DNA of 36,699 nt. Origin: a virus. The stretch spans positions 1 through 36,699 of IMG/VR virus record IMGVR_UViG_3300037502_001878; one strand, written 5' to 3'. Under the pieces are notes generated by a model. That model was not told where the DNA came from. It did no database searches and saw only the letters and a program-made list of their open reading frames with translations. Both the position numbers and the translations under genes were made by a program. Positions 387 to 36,699 of this stretch are shown one piece after another. The stretch's first letter is position 1. Every line of letters begins with the position of its first letter.

Positions 387-2048
387 TTACGCGTAAAGAT
401 TGATTGCTAGATAGCCTTCGATTGCTGTTGCTGTTTTGGCCTTAACGCTAATCCTTGAGCTTGCAGGGATAGCAAGATCCAAAACACCGTTGCCGCCTGG
501 GAAAATGTAAAGCTGATCAACTTCAGCACCAGCACCACCAACAGCCAAGATCATCACTTCACCCGATGAATCAAAAATCTCAATGCGTGAAACAATAGCA
601 GAAGTGCTTGCAACAAGTTGAGTATAAGCCGCAGTCGTAACATTGCTTAAGCTGTAATCAAGGAAAAGCTGCTGGACTTTTGATCGGCCTGAAGCTTTAA
701 AATCTAAGACCTGATCGCTTGCAACAGTAACACTCAATGAGCCTGACTTGGTAGTCTGCCCAAGGGTAGCAGGTAACTTTCCGCTGATTGTGCTGAGTGT
801 GCTGCTTTGAGTTTGTTGCTCACTAAGGGTTGCGGCTCCAGTCGGAAGCGGCAAACTTGCAGCACTCACTGGTTGAGTCACAGCCGAGCCGTCTACCTTG
901 ATTCCATTAACAGTGGTCACAATCTTAGTATCAACACTTGCTAAGGTTGTCTCAGTGGCTGCGCCCGTTGGAAGTGGTAAGCTTGCTGCACTAACTGGTT
1001 GTGTAACCGCAGAGCCATCAACCTTAATACCGTTCGCTGTGGTCACAACTTTGGTATCAATGCTTGCAAGAGTTGTCTCGGTAGCAGCTCCAGTCGGTAG
1101 GCTCACAGTGCCAGTGATGTTTGTGATGTTCCAAGTGCCTGATTGAGTTGCAGCAACAGTGCTTCCTGTTACATCAGCAGTCAAAGAGCCTGAAGGGTTT
1201 ACTTTAACAGTGTGATAAGTACCACCGCCAGAAGTAGATAAACCCCAAATAACGGACTTGGTTAGGTCTGCCATCATGTACGAGTTCACAGCTTGTGCAA
1301 GGCTATACTTAGACGGAGTTGTGTTGGTGCGCTTTAAAATAGTGGTAAGTCTAAAGCTTGATTGAGCTACTGCACCGTTGGTGTAAACTATTCGGAAATA
1401 ACGAAGTTCTGCTGCTTGGTTATAACTAACACCTACGCCGCCAACGACATCAAAATTATGTGTATGATCCCAATTCACACCGTCTGGGCTGAACTGCATC
1501 GATAGGCCGCCAGAAGCAGAGGATACATCCGAGAAAGCTGCAATGCTTATGCTTGAGAAGTTTGTCACCTCAATGGAAGCACCTGTAAACACGCCGCCAA
1601 TACCTAAAGGAGTTGTGGAGCTGTTGGTTAAATCAACAACACTAGCTTGTTGATCGCTAATTTCATAAAGGACATTCGTTTGAGTTATTTGCTCACCATT
1701 AGTTGCAAAATCTTTGGCTTCTAAGCTTGCCAAAGTTGTTTGAGTGGCAAAGTCTTTACCTTCTAAGCTTGCAAGTGTGGTTTGTGTTGCATAATCAACA
1801 GCCGCAAGCGTTGCCGTATCCCCTGCGATCGTTCCAACATTTGTGTCAATCGTTGCCAAGTATCCTTCAATGGTTGACGGATCAAATGGCGTGACTGGAT
1901 TGCCACTAGAATCAATTTGAATAACAGGAAGTGGCGTTGAGTTCGCAGGTGTAACCGTGTTTATGCTAACATCGGTTAGACTTCCGTCATTGATGAATTT
2001 AACAGGGGCTGCTGTGCTTGCTTGAGTAGGCCAGGTAAAATTTGCCAT
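387..2048 (-). CDS. Tail fibre protein with internal 42-residue tandem repeats
   Basis: A 553-residue beta-rich, low-Cys virion protein. Residues 1-60 are a Thr/Pro/Asp-rich start. Residues about 85-117 hold short repeats of the type ATQTTLASLE. Residues about 155-240 form a probable beta-sandwich with conserved aromatic residues (FSPDG, NWDH, FRIVY). Residues 317-400 are two near-identical 42-residue units beginning LPTGAATETTLAS, followed by a partial third unit. Residues 440-553 are a C-terminal beta domain. LPTGAAT/ETTL repeats are common in phage fibre and side-tail proteins. The gene sits between the 120-residue protein gene (two bases away) and the junction fibre gene, whose ribosome binding site overlaps its stop. 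It probably forms a trimeric appendage; its receptor is unknown. Confidence 0.75.
   Translation of the reverse strand: MANFTWPTQASTAAPVKFINDGSLTDVSINTVTPANSTPLPVIQIDSSGNPVTPFDPSTIEGYLATIDTNVGTIAGDTATLAAVDYATQTTLASLEGKDFATQTTLASLEAKDFATNGEQITQTNVLYEISDQQASVVDLTNSSTTPLGIGGVFTGASIEVTNFSSISIAAFSDVSSASGGLSMQFSPDGVNWDHTHNFDVVGGVGVSYNQAAELRYFRIVYTNGAVAQSSFRLTTILKRTNTTPSKYSLAQAVNSYMMADLTKSVIWGLSTSGGGTYHTVKVNPSGSLTADVTGSTVAATQSGTWNITNITGTVSLPTGAATETTLASIDTKVVTTANGIKVDGSAVTQPVSAASLPLPTGAATETTLASVDTKIVTTVNGIKVDGSAVTQPVSAASLPLPTGAATLSEQQTQSSTLSTISGKLPATLGQTTKSGSLSVTVASDQVLDFKASGRSKVQQLFLDYSLSNVTTAAYTQLVASTSAIVSRIEIFDSSGEVMILAVGGAGAEVDQLYIFPGGNGVLDLAIPASSRISVKAKTATAIEGYLAINLYA
849..1100 (-). repeat. Two tandem 126-bp coding repeats in the fibre gene
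   Basis: Two consecutive 126-bp units (1100-975 and 974-849, read on the minus strand) encode 42-residue units that differ at only about three residues. The DNA differs at many third codon positions. The units are therefore old duplications held by selection on the protein, not a recent slippage. A third, partial unit of seven residues follows. Confidence 0.8.
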
Positions 2049-2049
2049 A

Positions 2050-2412
2050 TTACACCATCTTTACTTGAAGAGTTGCTGTAAGGTTTCCGGTTCCGCTTGT
2101 TGCATTGTACTTCAAACGAAGTGCGTTAAAAGGAAGGTTATTGCAACTGATAGCATGATCACCAGAGTTACCAGAGATTGTGATAGGAGCGCCAAAATCT
2201 AGAGCGGTCCATGTGATTGTCTCGTTGGGATTTTCCTGCTGATTGGAAACCTCTACAACCAGCTCACCGACTGGAGTGGTGCCAGACCATGCCACTACTA
2301 TGCCCACATTATCCAAATAGGGCACATAAACAATTGGGCTTGTTTGGTTCCCTGATATGTCCACACCATCAAACATCTTGAACCCCTTTGGGTTCAGTAC
2401 ATCTTTACGCAT
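2050..2412 (-). CDS. Small beta-rich virion protein, paralogue of the 115-aa protein at 28813
   Basis: A 120-residue protein with no signal peptide. The start ATG at 2412 follows a GGAGG Shine-Dalgarno. The second half holds W-T-A-L-D, ITIS and TSGTGNLTATL, which align in the same order with W-A-P-I-D, ITIS and NSGTGTLTLVL in the protein encoded at 28813-29160. It lies between the largest ejection-type protein and the fibre genes, so a small appendage or fibre-attachment component is likely. The function is not known to me; the structural role is inferred from position and beta composition. Confidence 0.7.
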   Translation of the reverse strand: MRKDVLNPKGFKMFDGVDISGNQTSPIVYVPYLDNVGIVVAWSGTTPVGELVVEVSNQQENPNETITWTALDFGAPITISGNSGDHAISCNNLPFNALRLKYNATSGTGNLTATLQVKMV

Positions 2413-2436
2413 AAAGCCTCCTTGATAGGTTCGGGA

Positions 2437-5064
2437 TTACTCGCCCCTAGACCTGATTAGTTGTTCAGATTGTCCCATTCCTTGCTTTAAAAAGTCACTT
2501 TCAATTTTCTTCGACTTTGGTCTGGCCTGCTGTTGAGCCTCTTCTTGTTGCCCTGCTTCGATCGCACCCATTTGCAGTCGTTGCATCATCTGAGCATCTT
2601 GGGCATTTGTTAATGGTTGGCCCAATAACAAGCTTAACTGAAGTTGTTTATTGAATGGAATATGTTGGCTATGATCGCCGACCTGCTTAACTGCCTCAGT
2701 CACTATTCGATTATAGATGTCTGGGTAAATAGTCTTCACAGCCTCAACAGCTTCACCAGTCAAAACACCTTGCTCAAGATCAGTAAGGATCGAGAACGGA
2801 TCATCAACAGCTTTTAAATAGCGATTGAACTTAGAAAGCTCCGCATCTGATGGCTTCCACTTGACCTTGCTCTGAAACATAGAGCCTTCAAATGGATTCT
2901 TTGGCGCTTTTGACTCCAAGAAGCTCACAGCCTCGATAGAAGTGTTAGCAATGGCTTGTTGTAAGCTTGGATCTACGTTAGCAAGGCCACGAGTTGATTC
3001 ATCGATCTTTGCTGCGTACTCATCAGGATTAGTTGCCATGCGCTGCACATAATCCAAGTTCTTCTCGTAATCTTTGAATGAGCTAGTGATTGCAATGGTG
3101 CTCGCTGGCACAATTGTCTTTTTGGTTGATGTGATAAAGTTTTTAAGCCTTGATGCGACTTCTTTCGCCTGCTTTTCCTGAACATCAAGGGCAATCTTAC
3201 CAGCTTGATAAACTCCGTACTGAGCAAAATCAGCCGCCCACAATGTAGGTTTCAAGATGTCAGTGTACCACATCCCCTCAGGTGTTCCGCTCGGCCCAAT
3301 CTTTCTAGGGATCTTACGGTAAAGCTGGTGCAAATTGTTAATGCTTCTGATCTTGTCTTTACCCAAGATCAATTCAGCCGCTTCTGGTGCATATTTATCT
3401 AATTCTTTTTTAAGCTTCAAAACATCAGTGATGGAGTTACCCATAGGATCAAAGCCTTGAGTTTTTGACGCAAGCTTTGCGATCTCTATTCTGCGGTATT
3501 TCTCAAAAATGTCTGGGAATGATTCCTTCATGAATCGTAAAGTCTTTGGAGACTTCACATCGAAAAGATTCCTAGCAAGTTTAGCGTTGTCGATGTTTTC
3601 AACCCGATCAATAAACTGGTCAAAGCTTTTAATCTTTCCTAGTCCTGCTTCCTCTCCAATATCTTCTAGGAAAACCTTAAACTCTCGCCATCCCTTTTTT
3701 GCCTCTTTCAAATCAGACAAAAACTCTTTTGCTAACGCTTGTCCGTTTGGCATTTGCAAGGCTTGGTCAATTGCAGCCTTCTTAACTTGGCGCTCTAGGT
3801 AGCTATCAATTTTGTCTTTGAGATTCCCAATCAATCTTGCTTCATTCCCAAAACCAGTTTGGCGCATATTCTGAGCACGTTGGCCAAGATCACTTGAGAT
3901 TTCTTTTATCTTCGACAAAGGCATATCAATCATTTCTGCCATGTTGTCGATTGAATCCTTGGCAGCTTTTCTTGCAGCACTTTGTCTGAGTGTGTTCTTT
4001 TCGGCCCAATCGTTGATGCGCTTGACTAAGTTTTGCCGAAGCTCTGGAGTAAGTGTGATTGCCTCAAACTCTGTGTTCATCTTTTGGTAAAGAGTCGATG
4101 CAGGATCATAAAGCTGGTGGGCTCTTGAAACGAGTTCATTTTTCACCTGATCAGCAACGCTCTCAGCCGTTTCCTCGGAGGCTTCCTCAACAACCTTTGA
4201 GGCTTGTCGTTGAAATGCTTTGTAAGTGGGCTTTACCTCTTCCCGCACCCACATCCCAGGCAAAGTAGGCTTTTGCGCTAGAGATGATTCAAGCCCTCGG
4301 ATGACCTCGCTATCTGATAGCATCCCCTTGGTAAGCGGTATGCCTTCAATCTCAGCAAGTCTTTTCAATTCATCAATGTTTGGTGCTGCTTTTTTAAACT
4401 CTTCACCTAAATAGTCATCAGCTTCACCGATAAACTTTGAAATAGCCCCTTCGCCTCTTAAAAGCTTTGAGACTTGTTTCTTTACAATTTGAGCACCTTC
4501 GGCAACGCCATGAGCGCCCATTCCAAAAGTACCGCCTATAATAGAGCCAAGCCCTACGTTCGCTATAAGGCTCTCTGCGACGCTTTCAGGAGTACCCAAG
4601 GCTTGATCAGAAATAGTTTGCCCGACGCCGTATAGAGCACCCTCAAGAGCCTCACGAGCCCCTGCGCGAACTAATGGACGAGCAATGCCAGCCGTTGCAG
4701 CTTGAGCACCACGAGCAACCACGGCACCAGGGCCAAGAAATGCGCCAGCAATACCGCCAGTCACTTCACCGGCTGTGGACAATTCAGGCAAATAGGCCTG
4801 GAGCTTTCTGGCTTCTTCGGCGAGCCCTGCGCCCTTTAAAATCGCATCAGAGATCCCAAATGTTAAACCCCTTGCAGCACCAGCACCAAAGGCTGCGGCT
4901 GCTGAAGGCAAAGTCTGATATTGAGCTTGCTCTTGTCGGTAAGCTAATTGCTCAGGGCTTACTGTCTCACCGCCAAGATCAGCCAAAGGATCTGTTTGAC
5001 TACCTTGCGGCTTTTGTTGAGCCGCCATTTCTTCCCTAACTATCTGCTCTAATGGATCATTCAT
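2437..5064 (-). CDS. Large internal virion (DNA ejection) protein, membrane-active type
   Basis: An 875-residue protein. After a charged N-terminus, residues about 55-205 are rich in Gly and Ala, with several amphipathic or hydrophobic stretches (for example around GAGAARGLTFG, GGIAGAFLGPGAV and GLGSIIGGTFGMGA). This pattern is typical of ejection proteins that enter the host envelope. The middle, about residues 210-640, is long charged helix. The C-terminus is Gln-rich. It is the third of three consecutive large proteins (534, 327 and 875 residues), like the ejection trios of P22 (gp7, gp20, gp16) and T7 (gp14, gp15, gp16); this is positional analogy, not homology shown here. No lysozyme or transglycosylase motif was seen. 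The start overlaps the previous gene's stop by 4 bases. Confidence 0.7.
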   Translation of the reverse strand: MNDPLEQIVREEMAAQQKPQGSQTDPLADLGGETVSPEQLAYRQEQAQYQTLPSAAAAFGAGAARGLTFGISDAILKGAGLAEEARKLQAYLPELSTAGEVTGGIAGAFLGPGAVVARGAQAATAGIARPLVRAGAREALEGALYGVGQTISDQALGTPESVAESLIANVGLGSIIGGTFGMGAHGVAEGAQIVKKQVSKLLRGEGAISKFIGEADDYLGEEFKKAAPNIDELKRLAEIEGIPLTKGMLSDSEVIRGLESSLAQKPTLPGMWVREEVKPTYKAFQRQASKVVEEASEETAESVADQVKNELVSRAHQLYDPASTLYQKMNTEFEAITLTPELRQNLVKRINDWAEKNTLRQSAARKAAKDSIDNMAEMIDMPLSKIKEISSDLGQRAQNMRQTGFGNEARLIGNLKDKIDSYLERQVKKAAIDQALQMPNGQALAKEFLSDLKEAKKGWREFKVFLEDIGEEAGLGKIKSFDQFIDRVENIDNAKLARNLFDVKSPKTLRFMKESFPDIFEKYRRIEIAKLASKTQGFDPMGNSITDVLKLKKELDKYAPEAAELILGKDKIRSINNLHQLYRKIPRKIGPSGTPEGMWYTDILKPTLWAADFAQYGVYQAGKIALDVQEKQAKEVASRLKNFITSTKKTIVPASTIAITSSFKDYEKNLDYVQRMATNPDEYAAKIDESTRGLANVDPSLQQAIANTSIEAVSFLESKAPKNPFEGSMFQSKVKWKPSDAELSKFNRYLKAVDDPFSILTDLEQGVLTGEAVEAVKTIYPDIYNRIVTEAVKQVGDHSQHIPFNKQLQLSLLLGQPLTNAQDAQMMQRLQMGAIEAGQQEEAQQQARPKSKKIESDFLKQGMGQSEQLIRSRGE

Positions 5065-6665
5065 GGTGTGAGCCTTTTGAAAGGAATGTTGCGAGCCTTA
5101 GCGTTGCGCTCATAAACTTCTGCTTCCTGAGGAGTCACGTCTTTAGTAATTGGCCCAGCTTGCCCTTGATATTCAATGGTGACTCTGGTTAATGGCGAAG
5201 GACGCATTTTGGTTTGCAACCCAAGGATTTTGGCCTGTTCACCTTTTCTAAACTCCATCGAATCCACTAAGCTTTTAAGCTTTGCTTTAACTCCAGCATC
5301 AAGCTGCAATAGTTTTGTTGGATTACCAAGAACATCGTTTAGGACTAATTCTCTTTCTTTTTCTTGAATAGTTCCAGGTCCCAAGATTTCATCTTTTAAA
5401 CCACCACCGACAAGTCTTTGAGAAATAGCTTTTACCTCATCTTCGAGAACAGGATTTAAAGATTTTCCAGGCTTTTTTGCGATTTCAAAAAGACGGTTCA
5501 AATCTTTCATTGTGCTACGATAGCCAGGCAGAGTTTTTCTAAAGTCCATTGCCTCCTCTCTTGTCGGAGCAAAGCCAAAAAACTCTGAGTCACGAATATA
5601 TTTTTCCTCATCCTTATCAGACAAAACACCACGAGGAACTGGAGCTTCCTGTTGTCCAGCTCCTTTCATGGCCTCAAGTCTTGCAAGCTGCTCAATTTGC
5701 TTTGCTTGCACTTCCATGCGGCTCTTTTCAATGTCCCCTCGTAACGACTGAATCCTCATGGCTCGTTCTGCATTTTGGGCCTGTGATTCTTGGATCTGAA
5801 GCTTTGTGTTGATCATTCGATAAGCATTGTTAACCATCGCAGCACTTGCAGCTTCTTCGCTTCCAAGTTTAGCCACTAAATCACCATAAGCATTTCTGGC
5901 AGTAGCCCCGCGTTCTTTTGCTCTAAGGTACTTTTCTTTTTGCAAGGCTAAGTCTTGCTGAATAGCGCCATCAATGATTTGTTTTGCTGTGTTTGGCCCA
6001 CCAGTCATGGCACTAGCGTAAGCGCCAACACCCATCGCAATAGCAGCAGCAATACGAGAACCTGTGGATTTGTTAGCCCAAAAGTCTTGAGGTTCAATTT
6101 TACCCGCTTCAGCTTCGATTTGCTGCACTTTTAGTTGAGCATTGGCAATAGCTTCCTGATTGGCCTTTTGTTTTTCAGCGTAAGCCTTTGTCTGAGCCTC
6201 AAGCTCATCCATCATGCCCTTTTGTCTACCAACTTGAAATGCGCCTTCTTGATAGCCTTTCAAAGCTTCTTGCATTCCATCTTTTTCAACCTGCTCCTGA
6301 GCTTTAAATTCTTGAGCTGTTGGTGCTCTCATTGGTTGAGGCTGCTCACTTGGAACTTGCAAAGGGATTGCAGAAGGCTGCATGGGCTCACTCATATCAA
6401 CAGGGATGCGCATCTGACTGAGCTGCTGGCTGTAAGGTTTAATATCTAATTGCCCTTTGGCTAACTGCAAAGCAGCGGTGGGATCTTGGCCGTACTGAGC
6501 AAGTTCTTGCGCTTTTAATTGCTTTTGCAATTGGCTACCGCCGCCTAAGCTTTGCAAAGCCTCAAGCGGTGCAAATTCACCAAAGGCACCTGGAGTCGTG
6601 TCATATTGCTGGGAAGGTAATTCGCCTAGAGCTTGATAGGTTTGCTCTTGAATAGTTTTTGCCAT
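5061..6665 (-). CDS. Internal virion (ejection) protein, coiled-coil rich
   Basis: A 534-residue Gln/Ala/Glu-rich protein. The first 130 residues are low-complexity and Gln/Pro-rich. Residues about 130-190 and 270-340 are strong heptad coiled coils. In between, about residues 197-225, lies an Ala/Gly/Met-rich, membrane-compatible helix (AAIAMGVGAYASAMTGG) followed by an NTAKQIIDGAIQQDL segment; helix-plus-segment of this style recurs in phage ejection proteins. The C-terminal 150 residues are a globular charged domain. The gene follows the S74-domain protein by 2 bases and overlaps the 875-residue protein gene by 4, so the three are expressed as a unit and probably assemble inside the capsid. 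Confidence 0.65.
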   Translation of the reverse strand: MAKTIQEQTYQALGELPSQQYDTTPGAFGEFAPLEALQSLGGGSQLQKQLKAQELAQYGQDPTAALQLAKGQLDIKPYSQQLSQMRIPVDMSEPMQPSAIPLQVPSEQPQPMRAPTAQEFKAQEQVEKDGMQEALKGYQEGAFQVGRQKGMMDELEAQTKAYAEKQKANQEAIANAQLKVQQIEAEAGKIEPQDFWANKSTGSRIAAAIAMGVGAYASAMTGGPNTAKQIIDGAIQQDLALQKEKYLRAKERGATARNAYGDLVAKLGSEEAASAAMVNNAYRMINTKLQIQESQAQNAERAMRIQSLRGDIEKSRMEVQAKQIEQLARLEAMKGAGQQEAPVPRGVLSDKDEEKYIRDSEFFGFAPTREEAMDFRKTLPGYRSTMKDLNRLFEIAKKPGKSLNPVLEDEVKAISQRLVGGGLKDEILGPGTIQEKERELVLNDVLGNPTKLLQLDAGVKAKLKSLVDSMEFRKGEQAKILGLQTKMRPSPLTRVTIEYQGQAGPITKDVTPQEAEVYERNAKARNIPFKRLTP

Positions 6666-6667
6666 GA

Positions 6668-7651
6668 TTATCGCTCCATCTTTTCAAGACGTTTGTTCAA
6701 ATGAGATACAGCAGCAAGCAAAGCACCAACAGACTGAGGCACATTGACCATTTTCCCATGAGCTGTGTCTTGCACTAAGCTTTTGCCCATTTCTGACTTT
6801 TCTAGGTCTTGGGCTATGATGCCGTAACGCTTCCCTTGAGCAGCCCCAGGCAATGAGCCATCTTTGTAGTCATAACTTTTTGCTGAGATGGCCTTGAGAA
6901 ACTTTGATACGTCTTTATCGCCGCTCTTGATGTTTTCCTTCTGGTTTACATCAGACATTAGTGCTCCAGCAGCAATAGTAGAACCAGCTTGCAATAAAGC
7001 TGCTTGCTGTTGTGCTCCTGTTTGAGCTTGTGCCATTCTTGCTTGTTGTCGCATCTGTTCAAGTTGTTGGTTGGCCAAGAACTGGGCCTGATCAACATTC
7101 ATACCCATTTGCACATATTGTTGAGCCAGTTGGTTAGCTTGCATCATTAGAGCTTGGTCTTGCGCTCTGGTTTGTCCGAGAGTTCCCGCAAGGGCTTGTT
7201 CGGCCTGCGCTTGCTCTTGAGCACGCAACATGCCTCCTTGAGCTGCTTGTTCTTGCATAGTCCCTGCGGTAGCTCTGGCAAGGTTACGTTGCGCTAAGCC
7301 AGCACCAGCGCCACGCTGGGAAGCTGCTTGAGAGGCTAAGGCTTGACGGGTTAAATCCATGCCTCTCCCCATTTGAAGCTCTGCGATTGAAGGGGCTTGA
7401 CCAAGGGCTCGCTGTTGCATCTGAGCAATCAGTTGTTGTTGCTGTTGTCCGACTTGAGTTTGACCAGCCAGACCTTGAGTTCCGACGGCTTCTTGGGCTT
7501 TTCTTTGTTCTTCAAGCAGTTTTTTGTTTTCTTCGCGGTATGGATCTTGAAAAGCTCCACCTTGAATGCGTCCAGGTCCCATCGATGCGGGCCCTTCACC
7601 ACTTAACATCCCTCCGATAGCCTCTACACCTTGTTTTACGAAACCCATCAC
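6668..7651 (-). CDS. Internal virion protein with C-terminal S74-type self-cleaving chaperone domain
   Basis: A 327-residue protein. Residues 1-230 are Gln/Ala/Met-rich helix of the ejection-protein type. Residues about 232-327 match the intramolecular chaperone (peptidase S74) family: S233-D-V-N-Q-K238-E-N-I at the start, then YDYKDG, YGIIAQDLEKS and a C-terminal amphipathic helix (LLAAVSHLNKRLEKM). In the family, a Ser-Lys pair five residues apart cleaves the domain off after folding; here Ser233 and Lys238 have that spacing. S74 domains are best known on fibres and spikes, so one on an ejection-type protein is notable. Cleavage would release about 95 residues. The start overlaps the upstream GNAT-like gene by 4 bases. 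Confidence 0.7.
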   Translation of the reverse strand: MMGFVKQGVEAIGGMLSGEGPASMGPGRIQGGAFQDPYREENKKLLEEQRKAQEAVGTQGLAGQTQVGQQQQQLIAQMQQRALGQAPSIAELQMGRGMDLTRQALASQAASQRGAGAGLAQRNLARATAGTMQEQAAQGGMLRAQEQAQAEQALAGTLGQTRAQDQALMMQANQLAQQYVQMGMNVDQAQFLANQQLEQMRQQARMAQAQTGAQQQAALLQAGSTIAAGALMSDVNQKENIKSGDKDVSKFLKAISAKSYDYKDGSLPGAAQGKRYGIIAQDLEKSEMGKSLVQDTAHGKMVNVPQSVGALLAAVSHLNKRLEKMER

Positions 7652-22970: not shown

Positions 22971-23251
22971 TTTGACCTCACAGTCATCACTTGAAATGAA
23001 CTAGAAGTCTCGTACTGCTTTATCAGATCCATCCCAAGGTCTTGCACCATTCTCTTTTTGTCTAGGTCTGTTCGTTGGCGATCATCAAGCAAGATCAGCA
23101 CCGGACCAGCCTCAAGCACTTTTTCGTCACCCATGATTTCTTTGACTGAATCCTTGAGTGACTTCTCTTCCTTTTCTAGTTCCTTGCGGGCTTCTATGAC
23201 TTTCAGAAGCCGCTCTGCCAATTCTACTTTTTCTTTTGCTACTGTTTTCAT
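22967..23251 (-). CDS. Small coiled-coil protein resembling the C-terminus of YqaJ-type nucleases
   Basis: A 94-residue charged protein. Residues 10-45 are a helix (ERLLKVIEARKELEKEEKSLKDSVKEIMG), then a beta part (VLEAGPVLILLDDRQRTDLDKKRM) and a KQYETSSSFQVMTVR end. This layout resembles the C-terminal tails of phage YqaJ-family exonucleases, which end in a K-x-S/T-x-x-R-x-F/V-T-V-x pattern. No nuclease domain is present here. Whether it is a stand-alone relative or convergence is unclear. Starts after AAGGA and overlaps the lipoprotein gene by 4 bases. Confidence 0.5.
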   Translation of the reverse strand: MKTVAKEKVELAERLLKVIEARKELEKEEKSLKDSVKEIMGDEKVLEAGPVLILLDDRQRTDLDKKRMVQDLGMDLIKQYETSSSFQVMTVRSK

Positions 23252-23274
23252 ATCGGATTCCTTCCGTTTATTGT

Positions 23275-23436
23275 TTATTTTAAACCAAAACTCATTGGAA
23301 TGTATTGCTTAGCCATTTCTATGATTCTTTCTAAGCTTGTGGTGCAATACATTGATCGCAAAGTATGAGCATAGTCTATTTGATCTTTTGTTAGTCCTGC
23401 GGCTTTGAAAATCTTTGTGTATTCTCTTTTAGTCAT
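23275..23436 (-). CDS. 53-aa hypothetical protein, first gene of the small minus operon
   Basis: Too short for long-ORF lists. The product starts MTKREYTKIFKAAGLTKDQI and is helical, ending MAKQYIPMSFGLK. The ATG at 23436 has an ideal GGAGT Shine-Dalgarno seven bases upstream. The gene lies 37 bases or so downstream of the promoter at 23480-23508. The function is unknown; a small early regulator is possible from its place only. Confidence 0.65.
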   Translation of the reverse strand: MTKREYTKIFKAAGLTKDQIDYAHTLRSMYCTTSLERIIEMAKQYIPMSFGLK

Positions 23437-23479
23437 TTTCGTACTCCTTACGTTTTGTTTCTTATCACCTTACAAACAC

Positions 23480-23508
23480 AGAATATCACTGTACGGACAC
23501 GTTGTCCA
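23480..23508 (-). promoter_or_regulatory. Promoter for the small minus operon
   Basis: On the minus strand: -35 TGGACA (503-508), 17-base spacer, -10 TATTCT (480-485). The expected start is near 23473, about 37 bases upstream of the 53-aa gene. Both boxes are near sigma70 consensus, with one mismatch in the -35 and two in the -10. The -35 is overlapped by an inverted repeat (495-507), consistent with repression. Confidence 0.6.
23495..23507. promoter_or_regulatory. Inverted repeat overlapping the -35 (candidate operator)
   Basis: GGACACGTTGTCC is a perfect 5-bp dyad with a 3-base centre. It covers most of the -35 of the minus promoter. The neighbouring sequence ACTGTAC occurs both here (about 488-494) and at 522-528, and a dyad TACCAATATGGTA lies at 526-538. 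A repressor such as the RHH protein would be expected to bind here; this is inferred. Confidence 0.55.
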
Positions 23509-23525
23509 CCACTTTATTCATACTG

Positions 23526-23538
23526 TACCAATATGGTA
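23526..23538. promoter_or_regulatory. Second inverted repeat of the switch region
   Basis: TACCAATATGGTA is a perfect 5-bp dyad with a 3-base centre (ATA). It is 18 bases upstream of the first dyad. Its place and similar size suggest a second operator. The same A-rich dyad style recurs further at 23564-23575. Confidence 0.5.
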
Positions 23539-23563
23539 ATTTCTTCAAATGAGACGCTCTAAT

Positions 23564-23575
23564 GCAATATATTGC
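23564..23575. promoter_or_regulatory. 12-bp palindrome GCAATATATTGC
   Basis: A perfect 12-base palindrome between the two divergent promoters. Related words occur within the downstream 53-aa gene (a GCAATACATTG near 23342 and its complement-like AATGTATTGC near 23299). A dimeric regulator site is possible; a chance palindrome is not excluded. Confidence 0.4.
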
Positions 23576-23604
23576 TTAAAAAGTGACCATTTTCGGCTTT
23601 TATG

Positions 23605-23631
23605 TTTACTTTTTACAGGGATTGATAAAAT
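23605..23631 (+). promoter_or_regulatory. Promoter with extended -10 toward the structured region
   Basis: Extended -10 TGATAAAAT (23623-23631), with TG at 23623-23624 and TAAAAT at 23626-23631. A -35-like TTTACT lies at 605-610 with a 15-base spacer. A start near 23638 would transcribe the structured segment and then the nuclease gene. The spacer is short, so the extended -10 is probably the main signal. Confidence 0.45.
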
Positions 23632-23637
23632 CTCTAG

Positions 23638-24045
23638 GGCAGAAAAAACAAAGGGGCTTGCAGGCCCCTGTTGTGAATACAAGCTGATAGTCAGGATCAG
23701 ATTGCACCTCGGATCACTCCGATAAGTTCAATTAACAAAATCCAAACTATTCTAGCAAGTATTTTTTTAACCTACGGCAATTTGTTGTTGCTATGGTTAC
23801 GTGGTCGCCAAAAACCTATTTGTTTAAGGACCGCATTCTAAGCGGCTAATTAAGTATCCGGTGCGAAAGCATGGCAAAGGATCGCCCAGGAAAGACGCCT
23901 GTGTGCTGTGGCAAGATAGGGGGACAGTGGTGTTGAGGGTTGGACCCTTGCCCATGATGTGCTTTGGGAAAGCTAGGCCCACCATGTTTCTAAAAGAGGA
24001 ACCGTAAACCCCAATACTCAGCTCATCCTAACGGTGGGATTGAAA
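23638..24045 (+). ncRNA. Candidate structured RNA (unrecognised)
   Basis: About 400 nt with no credible coding frame. GC is higher at 23881-24000 (about 54%) than in the AT-rich region beside it. Stems visible by pairing: 709-713/718-722; 768-772/795-799 enclosing 776-780/788-792; 831-834/842-845; 858-864/869-874, capped by a C(GAAA)G tetraloop; 887-890/898-901; a 6-bp helix 927-932/980-985 enclosing hairpins 936-940/944-948 and 961-965/969-973 as a three-way junction; and 24001-24005/24031-24035, whose loop can pair downstream (12-15 with 39-42) as a pseudoknot. The tetraloop favours the plus strand. I could not match it to RNase P RNA, tmRNA, SRP RNA, group I or II introns or a common riboswitch. 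A replication origin with secondary structure is the main alternative. Confidence 0.5.
23642..23669 (-). terminator. Intrinsic terminator on the minus strand at the edge of the structured region
   Basis: Stem AGGGGC/GCCCCT (652-657 and 664-669) with a 6-base loop; on the minus strand it is followed by TTTGTTTTTTC. It would stop minus-strand transcription coming from the 24-kb side before it reaches the promoter region. It also raises the option that the structured RNA is made from the minus strand. Confidence 0.7.
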
Positions 24046-24149
24046 AGTATTCCATTAACTTCTTCCTAGCCTCTTTACTTGTTAAAGGGGGTAGGGGGGA
24101 TTTTGTTTAATATCTAGCTAAGCCTTCAATGGGCTTGAAAGGGGTAGTT

Positions 24150-24518
24150 GTGAAAATTTTAAATACAAAAGAAAAAATAAAGCGCAAAGCAAGGCTCGCA
24201 AGGTTTTCTATTGAACTAAATCAATCTTTGCCAAAATCCGAAGTCTGGTTTTGGAAGGTCTATAAACAACATCAGGATAAGCATGATTTAAAGAACGGCT
24301 ATTGGGGCCCATTTATCTATGACATATTAAATCATAAGCACAAATATGCGGTAGAAATAGATGGTTCATATCATGACAGTCCAGTTCAGAAGCTAAGGGA
24401 TGAACAAAAGAATGAATTTGCTAGAAAACAAAACTACCTTCTTTTGAGAGTTAAAGCCTACGATCTTGCTGATGCTAAGTCGGCTATTGAGTTTTTATTA
24501 AAATATAGGAACAAATAA
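24150..24518 (+). CDS. DUF559 / Vsr-like endonuclease (candidate homing nuclease)
   Basis: A 122-residue protein. I choose the GTG at 24150 (MKILNTKEKI), which has an AAAGGGG ribosome binding site seven bases upstream. The ATG at 24129 has none. The core YAVEIDGSYHDSPVQKLRDEQKNEFARKQNYLLLRV matches DUF559 and Vsr-like nucleases: Glu69, Asp71 and His75 in the E-x-D-G-x-x-H motif, then a K-x-R-D/E-x-x helix and the L-L-R-V-K-A strand. The E-x-D-G..H pattern also defines phage Vsr-like (EDxHD) homing nucleases. The role is likely cutting of DNA at a specific site or acting as a mobile element. It directly follows the structured RNA. Confidence 0.75.
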   Translation: MKILNTKEKIKRKARLARFSIELNQSLPKSEVWFWKVYKQHQDKHDLKNGYWGPFIYDILNHKHKYAVEIDGSYHDSPVQKLRDEQKNEFARKQNYLLLRVKAYDLADAKSAIEFLLKYRNK

Positions 24519-27895: not shown

Positions 27896-28363
27896 TCATC
27901 TTTTACGTTTTCTTCCTTCTAAGGAAATCTTTAAATTGTATGCTTTATAACGTTGAGTGTAACACGTTTTACAAAACCTTATATAAGCGCCAGTTCGACC
28001 AATTTTATAAATAGTATTCTCTTTCGTAAATTCATGGCCATATTTGCAATGATTTTTATCTGACCATTGATTTCGTAACCGTCCTTTTATGACTTTATCT
28101 GCCATGTTGGTCTTTGGCGTTCCAATAAATAAATGATCAACATTGCAACAAGACGGATTATCACAACGATGGCAAACCAAATCAGACTGATTTAATTTTT
28201 TGTGTATTAGAAAATAAATCAGCCTGTGTGAGCGCCAGTGTTTTTTATTGTAAAAGATTTTCCCATAACCATTTTTATCTTTACAGCCAATCCACTCAAA
28301 ACAATTAGTTTTTGAATTTATGGATAGCCTACTAAAAAATCTATTTACAATTGTGTCCTTCAT
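27896..28363 (-). CDS. HNH homing endonuclease (free-standing)
   Basis: A 155-residue protein. Residues about 45-90 hold the HNH core: RSHRLIYFLIHKKLN, then LVCHRCDNPSCCNVDHLFIGTPKTNMADKV, which is the HNH_3 type of phage homing nucleases. The C-terminal half carries HCKYGHEFTKENT and a C-x-x-C pair, a likely second Zn knuckle or DNA-binding part. It starts directly at the base after the endolysin stop, at the end of the late operon, and ends by the convergent terminator. Such genes spread by cutting genomes that lack them. Confidence 0.85.
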   Translation of the reverse strand: MKDTIVNRFFSRLSINSKTNCFEWIGCKDKNGYGKIFYNKKHWRSHRLIYFLIHKKLNQSDLVCHRCDNPSCCNVDHLFIGTPKTNMADKVIKGRLRNQWSDKNHCKYGHEFTKENTIYKIGRTGAYIRFCKTCYTQRYKAYNLKISLEGRKRKR

Positions 28364-35035: not shown

Positions 35036-36699
35036 TAGTAGTTACCAGTCCTTACAATCGACAGCGTGTTTCTTCCTGTGTTAGTAGTTAGAGCCAGGTT
35101 CCCTCCGCTAGTCTGCTGAGTGTATATTTTGATTGTCTGTCCCGCTAGTAATCTAACTGATTTTGTAAGAGCTAGAGAAAAGTCCACTCCTGTTACGGTC
35201 GGTGTCACTATGATTGCAGCGGTGGTTCCGTTAGCTTGAATCTCTAACGTCCTGAGTCCTGTTCCGTTGGCATTGTAATTTATGTTAGCTGCTACTAAAT
35301 ACCGACCGCTTATAGGTGCTGTAAAGGTGTTTGAACTCCATGAACCAGTAGAATCACCCTCAGTTGTTCCAAATGTTATTTGAGTTGCGCTGTTGTTTGG
35401 GATTGACTGACCTGCGGTTGTAGAGACTTCGACCGCCACCGTCTCACTCGCAGCGATTTGCGCTGGGCCGGAGATGCGTTCGATTTCAATTCTTGTGGCT
35501 CCTGATGATGCCAAGGTGGTTTGCGTTGACCCAGTGCTCTGATAAAATCCTGCCTGAATTGTATCTCCAGCATTGTACCAATATAATGCCCTAGCAGCTA
35601 TGGACCAATTCGCGGAAACTGCTTGGGTTATAACTGTGTCTCTAGAGATTGCAGTTGTGTTACGGTAGATATAACCAATTAAAGTGTTCACCGCTGAGAA
35701 ATCGGTAAATGTTAATGTTGCATTAACTCGATAATATCCAGAAACAGGAACAACATATCTCCAGCCAGTCCCTGCCGTTGTTACAGGTCCAGAGCCAAGA
35801 ACAGCAGCGTTGTTTGTGTCTATGACCTTATCCTCAAAATTAACAAAGGTTATTGTCGTGTTTGTTATGTTTTGAGCAGTGTTAGTTTCATAATTTGCCG
35901 CCACCACATTCGTCGCAGCATCCGAACTCATAACTGTGTTGGAGGACCAGCCGGTGATGGGGACGCGTATTCTTGCGGTGATTATGTCACCATTTGCAAA
36001 TGCCGACCCATCTATTGCAGCGGAGGCACCGTCGTTTAACAATGTAAATTGAGTTGTATTACCGTAGTTAACGGTTCCGGTCTTATGAGATGTTCCTGAA
36101 TCAAACCATCGAAAGTAGCCGACTGTTCCCTGAAGCGTTTTTGTTGAATCAACGGAATAGCCTGAAACCATGTTTAGGGCAAAAGTCCCACCATCTCCAG
36201 TACCAGAAAAGGTGACGTAGTAGTCTATTTCCATTGTGTCGCCATCACGACGCCACTTGTAGGTCACAGTTGAATTGTTTGAGGTGTCGGAGCCAGTAAA
36301 TGTAGCCGACCAATCAGTGAAAGGCACGCCCATGTTCTTGCCAATATCAGGACCCAGTGCAAAGTTATCAAAACGCATAGTGTACGCAGTCGCTGTACTT
36401 GTGGTGACATGAACGATTAGGCGGTAGCTTGTGGAGTTAGATGCAGTTTGAAACTCACCTTGCCAAGTCTGTGAGCCGATAGCATTCAGTATTTTGTAAG
36501 GAGCTGGCTGAATTAGTGTTGCGTTTGTTACGTCATAAATCCATACAGTCAAATCACCATCAGCATAGGTGCCAGAGGCTACAAGGTAATCGAAGCTTAC
36601 AGTCAGCATCTTAGCTTGATCAGCCTTATCGATTGTGAAGTTGTAGCTAAAGCCTTGCCCTTGCCTGTTTGCTGCATCATGTGTGAAGAGGAAGTTTGT
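35035..36699 (-). CDS. Tail fibre / receptor-binding protein, C-terminal part (continues at 1-376)
   Basis: The C-terminal 554 residues or so of the junction gene. Residues from the cut include a carbohydrate-binding-like beta region (LTVSFDYLVASGTYADGDLTVWIYDVTNA), then a region with WRRDGDTMEIDYYVTFSG, then two C1q/TNF-like jelly rolls: one with YVVPVSGYYRVNATLTFTDF and one with FTAPISGRYLVAANINYN, each followed by a G-R/I-x-I-E-R-I-type end. C1q-like folds form trimers at the tips of fibres. The gene ends one base before the lipoprotein's start codon. The joined gene has about 637 residues. Confidence 0.85.
   Translation of the reverse strand, partial: TNFLFTHDAANRQGQGFSYNFTIDKADQAKMLTVSFDYLVASGTYADGDLTVWIYDVTNATLIQPAPYKILNAIGSQTWQGEFQTASNSTSYRLIVHVTTSTATAYTMRFDNFALGPDIGKNMGVPFTDWSATFTGSDTSNNSTVTYKWRRDGDTMEIDYYVTFSGTGDGGTFALNMVSGYSVDSTKTLQGTVGYFRWFDSGTSHKTGTVNYGNTTQFTLLNDGASAAIDGSAFANGDIITARIRVPITGWSSNTVMSSDAATNVVAANYETNTAQNITNTTITFVNFEDKVIDTNNAAVLGSGPVTTAGTGWRYVVPVSGYYRVNATLTFTDFSAVNTLIGYIYRNTTAISRDTVITQAVSANWSIAARALYWYNAGDTIQAGFYQSTGSTQTTLASSGATRIEIERISGPAQIAASETVAVEVSTTAGQSIPNNSATQITFGTTEGDSTGSWSSNTFTAPISGRYLVAANINYNANGTGLRTLEIQANGTTAAIIVTPTVTGVDFSLALTKSVRLLAGQTIKIYTQQTSGGNLALTTNTGRNTLSIVRTGNY
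36573..36699. repeat. Right copy of 127-bp terminal direct repeat (contig overlap)
   Basis: Identical to 1-127. When one copy is removed and the ends joined, the fibre gene is uninterrupted. See the left copy for interpretation. Confidence 0.95.

Follow-up and report, generated by a model that had tools for sequence, protein, structure and literature searches.

The closest described counterparts of the locus studied here are the free-standing EDxHD/Vsr-like homing endonucleases of the I-Bth0305I type (DUF559), the large structured phage RNAs GOLLD and ROOL, the group I and group II introns that carry homing endonucleases, and primer RNAs such as those of ColE1 RNA II and the mitochondrial CSBII, in which a G-run and a T-rich tract hold an RNA-DNA hybrid that serves as primer. 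We analysed a virus record of 36,699 bases (the window), in which a long gene-free region precedes a small nuclease gene. The nuclease resembles the I-Bth0305I type in that it is encoded by a small stand-alone phage gene, scores above the curated DUF559 cut-off, keeps the invariant acidic, His, Lys and Arg positions and, in its predicted fold, comes nearest to the catalytic domain of I-Bth0305I, but it has no surrounding intron or intein and shares only 30–40% identity with its nearest relatives. As with GOLLD and ROOL, nested helices can be drawn in a long ORF-free phage stretch; unlike them, this stretch matches nothing in Rfam, is not unusually stable as a fold, yielded no homologues and has no tRNA genes nearby. 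A claimed structured RNA followed by an EDxHD nuclease recalls the introns with homing endonucleases, whereas no intron model matches this stretch even at permissive thresholds and no gene is split. The resemblance to the primer RNAs is one of layout, namely a region of leader length at a divergent site that ends in a G-run and then a T-rich tract, and the context here is a phage.

The first and last 127 bases of the record are identical (1–127 = 36573–36699) and an ORF of >600 codons runs over the end-to-start join, so the assembly is circular and probably represents the whole phage genome, of 36,572 bp (~36.6 kb). Its proteins match phage terminase, portal/connector, tail, head, Gp157/Mu-Gam-like and RusA families. 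The closest relative, an 8-kb contig (L086) with a 93% identical portal and ~81% identical DNA over the best part, does not include 23437–24149; further relatives are ~37 contigs with ~40% portal identity. A second free-standing endonuclease gene, of the HNH type, lies at 27896–28363 on the minus strand, at the other strand switch.

No credible ORF was found within 23437–24128, as the sequence-only reading had claimed, and six-frame translation gave no long frame, so that a coding remnant was rejected. The region is bounded on the left by a 53-aa minus-strand gene with a good SD (23275–23436) and separates a leftward operon (structural side) from a rightward early operon; the sign of the skew changes at ~24 kb, with the minimum at this divergent site. 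The higher GC content noted earlier was also confirmed, at 52–58% over 23890–23989 vs 30–46% over 23540–23790, and 23540–23640 forms an AT-rich flank. The extended −10 proposed upstream is present, but its −35 is poor and it was absent from the list of our promoter scan, which yielded fewer sites in the real sequence than in shuffles. Three operator-like repeats, GCAATAYATTG(C), cluster around a leftward promoter-like site, and terminator-like sites are found by consensus on both strands (Table 1).

Table 1 Positions of features in the window and in other phage loci
Record	Feature	Position	Strand	Basis or remark
Window	Divergent region without genes, flanked by the leftward and rightward operons	23437–24149		No credible ORF
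Window	Operator-like repeats (two of three)	23298–23308; 23344–23354
Window	Leftward promoter-like site, TGGACA-17-TATTCT with TG	23480–23508	−	Consensus only
Window	Operator-like repeat, perfect 12-bp palindrome GCAATATATTGC	23564–23575
Window	Extended −10 TGATAAAAT; a rightward transcript may start near 23638	23623–23631	+	Sequence; no good −35
Window	Terminator-like hairpin and U-run (would be a 5' hairpin on the plus strand)	23652–23669	−	−11.1 kcal/mol
Window	Long imperfect 64-nt hairpin, locally most structured segment	23687–23750	+	z −3.1 for 23681–23800
Window	Hairpin with 11-nt-receptor-like internal loop CCUACG/UAUGG	23768–23799	+	P 0.02
Window	GAAA tetraloop hairpin	23858–23874	+	GNRA P 0.01; competing fold favoured
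Window	Core with alternative helices; favoured pairing 23930–23940 with 24008–24017	23928–24057	+	z −0.24
Window	Motif ATACTCAGCTCATCCTAA, bipartite form common to the L213 and L215 leaders	24014–24031	+
Window	Further short shared motif site	24089–24099
L213	Short shared motif sites	2134–2150; 2181–2191
L215	Short shared motif site	2535–2551
Window	Terminator-like G-rich hairpin, then ATTTTGTTT	24065–24107	+
Window	Free-standing DUF559/EDxHD homing-type endonuclease	24150–24518	+	Annotated start ATG 24129
L195	Intein ORF / nuclease ORF	4751–6988 / 5433–5972
L219	Intein ORF / nuclease ORF	2187–3383 / 2572–3237
L250	Intein ORF / nuclease ORF	2037–4466 / 2410–3255
L261	Intein ORF / nuclease ORF	1716–4334 / 2548–3240
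L260	Intein ORF / nuclease ORF	669–3137 / 1270–1971
L221	Intein ORF / nuclease ORF	1911–3620 / 2626–3243
L262	Intein ORF / nuclease ORF	2025–4466 / 2617–3222
L252	Intein ORF / nuclease ORF	1749–4493 / 2632–3252
L237	Intein ORF / nuclease ORF	2127–4337 / 2686–3261

The "Vsr-like" nuclease said to follow the region was identified as such by the DUF559 Pfam model (28.4 bits vs a cut-off of 20.6). An AlphaFold model of modest quality (pLDDT 71) gives it the Vsr/EDxHD (PD-(D/E)XK) fold, and its top Foldseek match is I-Bth0305I (3r3p; prob 1.00, TM 0.55/0.67, E 0.0086), with Vsr itself (1cw0, 1vsr) lower in the list. The catalytic E, D, G, H, D, K and R are invariant in a five-member alignment and in the two nearest relatives. 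The nearest relatives (~40% identity for L215, ~32% for L213/L214/L212) share with the nuclease the subfamily signature LPxSExWF ... EIDGxYH; a subfamily profile search of 794 genomes of two bacterial phyla (E ≤ 1e-16) yielded none, although this search was weak, having no positive control. Taken with the domain score, the modelled fold gives good support for placing the nuclease, as a new member, in the EDxHD homing family. Translation probably starts at GTG 24150 rather than at ATG 24129, because the SD GAAAGGGG is properly placed for the former, and the gene-free stretch accordingly extends to 24149. The sequence-only reading had suggested a mobile or guide-like unit; a selfish mobile component is plausible because the neighbour is of the homing-endonuclease type by domain score and top structural match, while nothing indicates a guide function.

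The same reading had described a nested RNA fold for the gene-free stretch. The named helices can be drawn, but shuffled copies are just as stable as the plus strand itself (z 0.31 for 23790–24128 and −0.29 for 23720–24112). In a genome-wide sliding test, 120-nt windows of the core gave z values of +0.54 to +0.66 and some coding windows reached −3 to −4.9; the sole 120-nt exception to shuffle-level stability in the region was 23681–23800, within the lowest 1.1%. An RNA from the minus strand was considered and rejected (z −0.84). The 6-bp helix around 23928–23985 is drawable, but the three-way junction that it was proposed to close is not the favoured fold, in which 23930–23940 pairs elsewhere (Table 1). 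Likewise, the pseudoknot ACCGU/ACGGU (24001–24005 with 24031–24035) can be drawn but is at chance level, as H-type pseudoknots of this size occur ~1.6 times per shuffled copy (P 0.68).

Some elements stood out from the shuffles. The GAAA hairpin is present as described, albeit with a competing fold favoured, and the region holds two GNRA hairpins where shuffles give 0.18. The internal loop of the receptor-like hairpin at 23771–23796 is one mismatch from the canonical 11-nt GAAA receptor CCUAAG/UAUGG, and this hairpin is the only plus-strand match in the genome. The two hairpins would be parts of a tetraloop-receptor contact, which we take as a hint because our attention to the receptor was post hoc and other pairing is favoured over the GAAA hairpin. 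In addition, AACAAAAUCC and GGAUUUUGUU are perfect 10-bp long-range complements (23734–23743 with 24098–24107), and their pairing is predicted to form when the RNA ends at 24107. The folded RNA remains unproven, and the case shows how readily a single sequence gives an attractive fold at chance level.

The claim that the element matches no known RNA family held: Rfam covariance models, those of RNase P, tmRNA, SRP, introns, riboswitches and GOLLD/ROOL among them, gave no gathering match, and at E ≤ 10 only two meaningless matches, to plant-miRNA and plant-virus families. An RNase P-like reading, prompted by GTAAACCCC and AGGAAAG words, was dropped, with no Rfam match even at E ≤ 10. Homologues, which the sequence-only reading had hoped to align, were found neither in phages nor in plasmids. 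In IMG/VR, exact 17-mers gave no match and gapped patterns no homologue; the seven exact 17-mer matches in GTDB genomes are at chance level and include no homologue. None was seen among relatives by terminase, in 38 portal-related contigs, in 80 loci carrying the downstream gene or in 54 loci whose nucleases are related. A covariance model built from the single sequence (R1) was searched against 12 records and 667 kb of loci and recovered only itself. The collections searched exclude records very near the window, so that a near-identical copy would escape, and our gene-gap finder is too crude to place the equivalent region in distant relatives. One locus found by the pseudoknot pattern (L018) looked similar by eye, but its downstream ORF, judged by our reading of the translation, looks like an RNA-phage replicase, and the number of matches to the pattern fits chance.

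On co-occurrence of nuclease and RNA, each of the two nearest nuclease relatives, L215 and L213, is likewise preceded by a long ORF-free leader (one of 460 nt, one of at least 770 nt), but neither leader shows an RNA of significant similarity. Two out of two is only suggestive, because about ten of the ~45 DUF559 loci measured have gaps >380 nt, and the relatives' leaders are likewise not unusually stable (z 0.19 and −0.15). The motif ATAC[AT]C-N0-4-[CT]TCATC[CT]TA (M1) has three matches in 4.5 Mb, all in the three leaders (0.0025 expected in that of L213), and GGGTAGGGGG stands 3' of it in both the window and L213. When leaders were shuffled and any shared motif was allowed, ungapped motifs gave P values of 0.27–1.0; the bipartite form, chosen afterwards, gave 0.04. 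Since the ungapped signal vanishes and the bipartite form reaches only this value, we claim no shared RNA and treat the common motif as a suggestive lead.

Our interpretation, which we hold to be slightly better than an even bet, is that 23437–24149 serves as an early control region for divergent transcription, in which a long leader and a terminator-like hairpin precede a free-standing endonuclease of the homing type. It draws on the divergent gene order and the skew change, on promoter- and terminator-like sites on both sides together with the operator-like repeats, on the domain and fold of the nuclease, and on fold energies at shuffle level with no RNA family and no homologous RNA. Rightward transcription would probably start from the extended −10 and yield a long leader that is not translated and contains several local hairpins. 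The G-rich terminator-like hairpin may reduce expression of the gene that follows or set its timing, as in attenuation, before the endonuclease is translated from GTG 24150 and the early operon follows. The nuclease may be a selfish insertion that cuts nuclease-free relatives and spreads by repair, that is, by homing. Against this reading, a length of ~700 nt is more than a simple control region should need in a compact phage, the promoters and terminators are supported by consensus matches that hardly exceed those in shuffles, and the purine-rich, GC-raised 23850–24000 has a GNRA hairpin near the receptor-like hairpin. The long leaders of the nearest relatives also suggest that leader and nuclease may belong together.

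An alternative is a discrete structured non-coding RNA of ~370–470 nt on the plus strand (~23638 or 23731 to 24107), closed by the 10-bp complement and held by the GAAA-receptor contact, a phage RNA perhaps acting together with the nuclease. Its terminator-like 3' end, the GNRA and receptor-like hairpins above shuffle level, the complement predicted to form at that end, and the long leaders with a common bipartite motif all fit, but with z-scores near 0, no homologue anywhere searched, a shared motif that is not significant in unbiased tests and a 10-nt complement expected at an appreciable rate in 1 kb, we consider it rather unlikely. A more specific form, in which the window, L213 and L215 leaders represent a so far undescribed class of phage RNA, the long leader of this EDxHD subfamily marked by ATACWC-YUCAUCYUA, with the tetraloop/receptor contact in the window, and in which RNA and nuclease move as one unit, seems very unlikely. 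Should the leader RNA prove real, it would represent an orphan RNA of phages with a link to a selfish nuclease. The skew minimum at the divergent site and the AT-rich flank could instead mark a replication origin at which a leftover transcript primes DNA synthesis, its hybrid held by the G-run GGGGGTAGGGGGG and the T-tract after it (24087–24107); the word GGGTAGGGGGG also occurs in the L213 leader. This is quite unlikely, as there are no iterons in 23200–24200, DnaA boxes are at chance level, no replication initiator was recognised among the genes scanned, and the divergent coding strands also explain the skew change. We gave least credence to a decayed mobile intron or intein cassette of which the endonuclease is the only survivor. 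Group II introns of phages are reported to carry EDxHD/Vsr-like domains (PMC12350094), and inteins of other phages contain nucleases of this family, but no group I/II model matched, no intein fragment was detected near the nuclease gene and neither side shows a split host gene. As it stands, the locus contributes a single free-standing endonuclease of the homing type, preceded by a long leader, from a phage that has few close relatives.

The inteins of other phages gave what is, on present evidence, a stronger and more promising result than the claimed RNA. In all nine phage loci examined, the ORF of a DUF559/EDxHD homing-type nuclease (179–281 codons) is fully contained in a continuous intein ORF and is invariably read in the +1 frame. 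The Pfam intein splicing domain was detected in each (in some below the curated cut-off), and each intein ends ...HNC before the C-extein; the hosts are a large terminase (L195) and, for seven of the others, ResIII/DEAD-type helicases. To estimate how often the intein frame would stay open by chance, we fixed the nuclease protein and drew synonymous codons at local usage 2000 times. Between 5 and 15 stops are expected in the intein frame, which nevertheless stays open; it was open in ≤0.4% of draws, usually 0/2000 (P ≤ 0.004 at each locus). These nucleases thus differ from the in-frame endonuclease domains of inteins by being encoded in +1. They also appear to differ from the split-intein "fractured genes" named in a title cited in PMC3229294. 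The nearest precedent found is the ShiLan insertion of a phage methylase, which hides an HNH nuclease out of frame without splicing domains (PMC11855218). In Streptococcus phage SW2 (L208, 595–1731), a DUF559-type nuclease gene immediately precedes a terminase large subunit whose annotation is split into two pieces, an arrangement that again ties this nuclease family to interrupted terminases.
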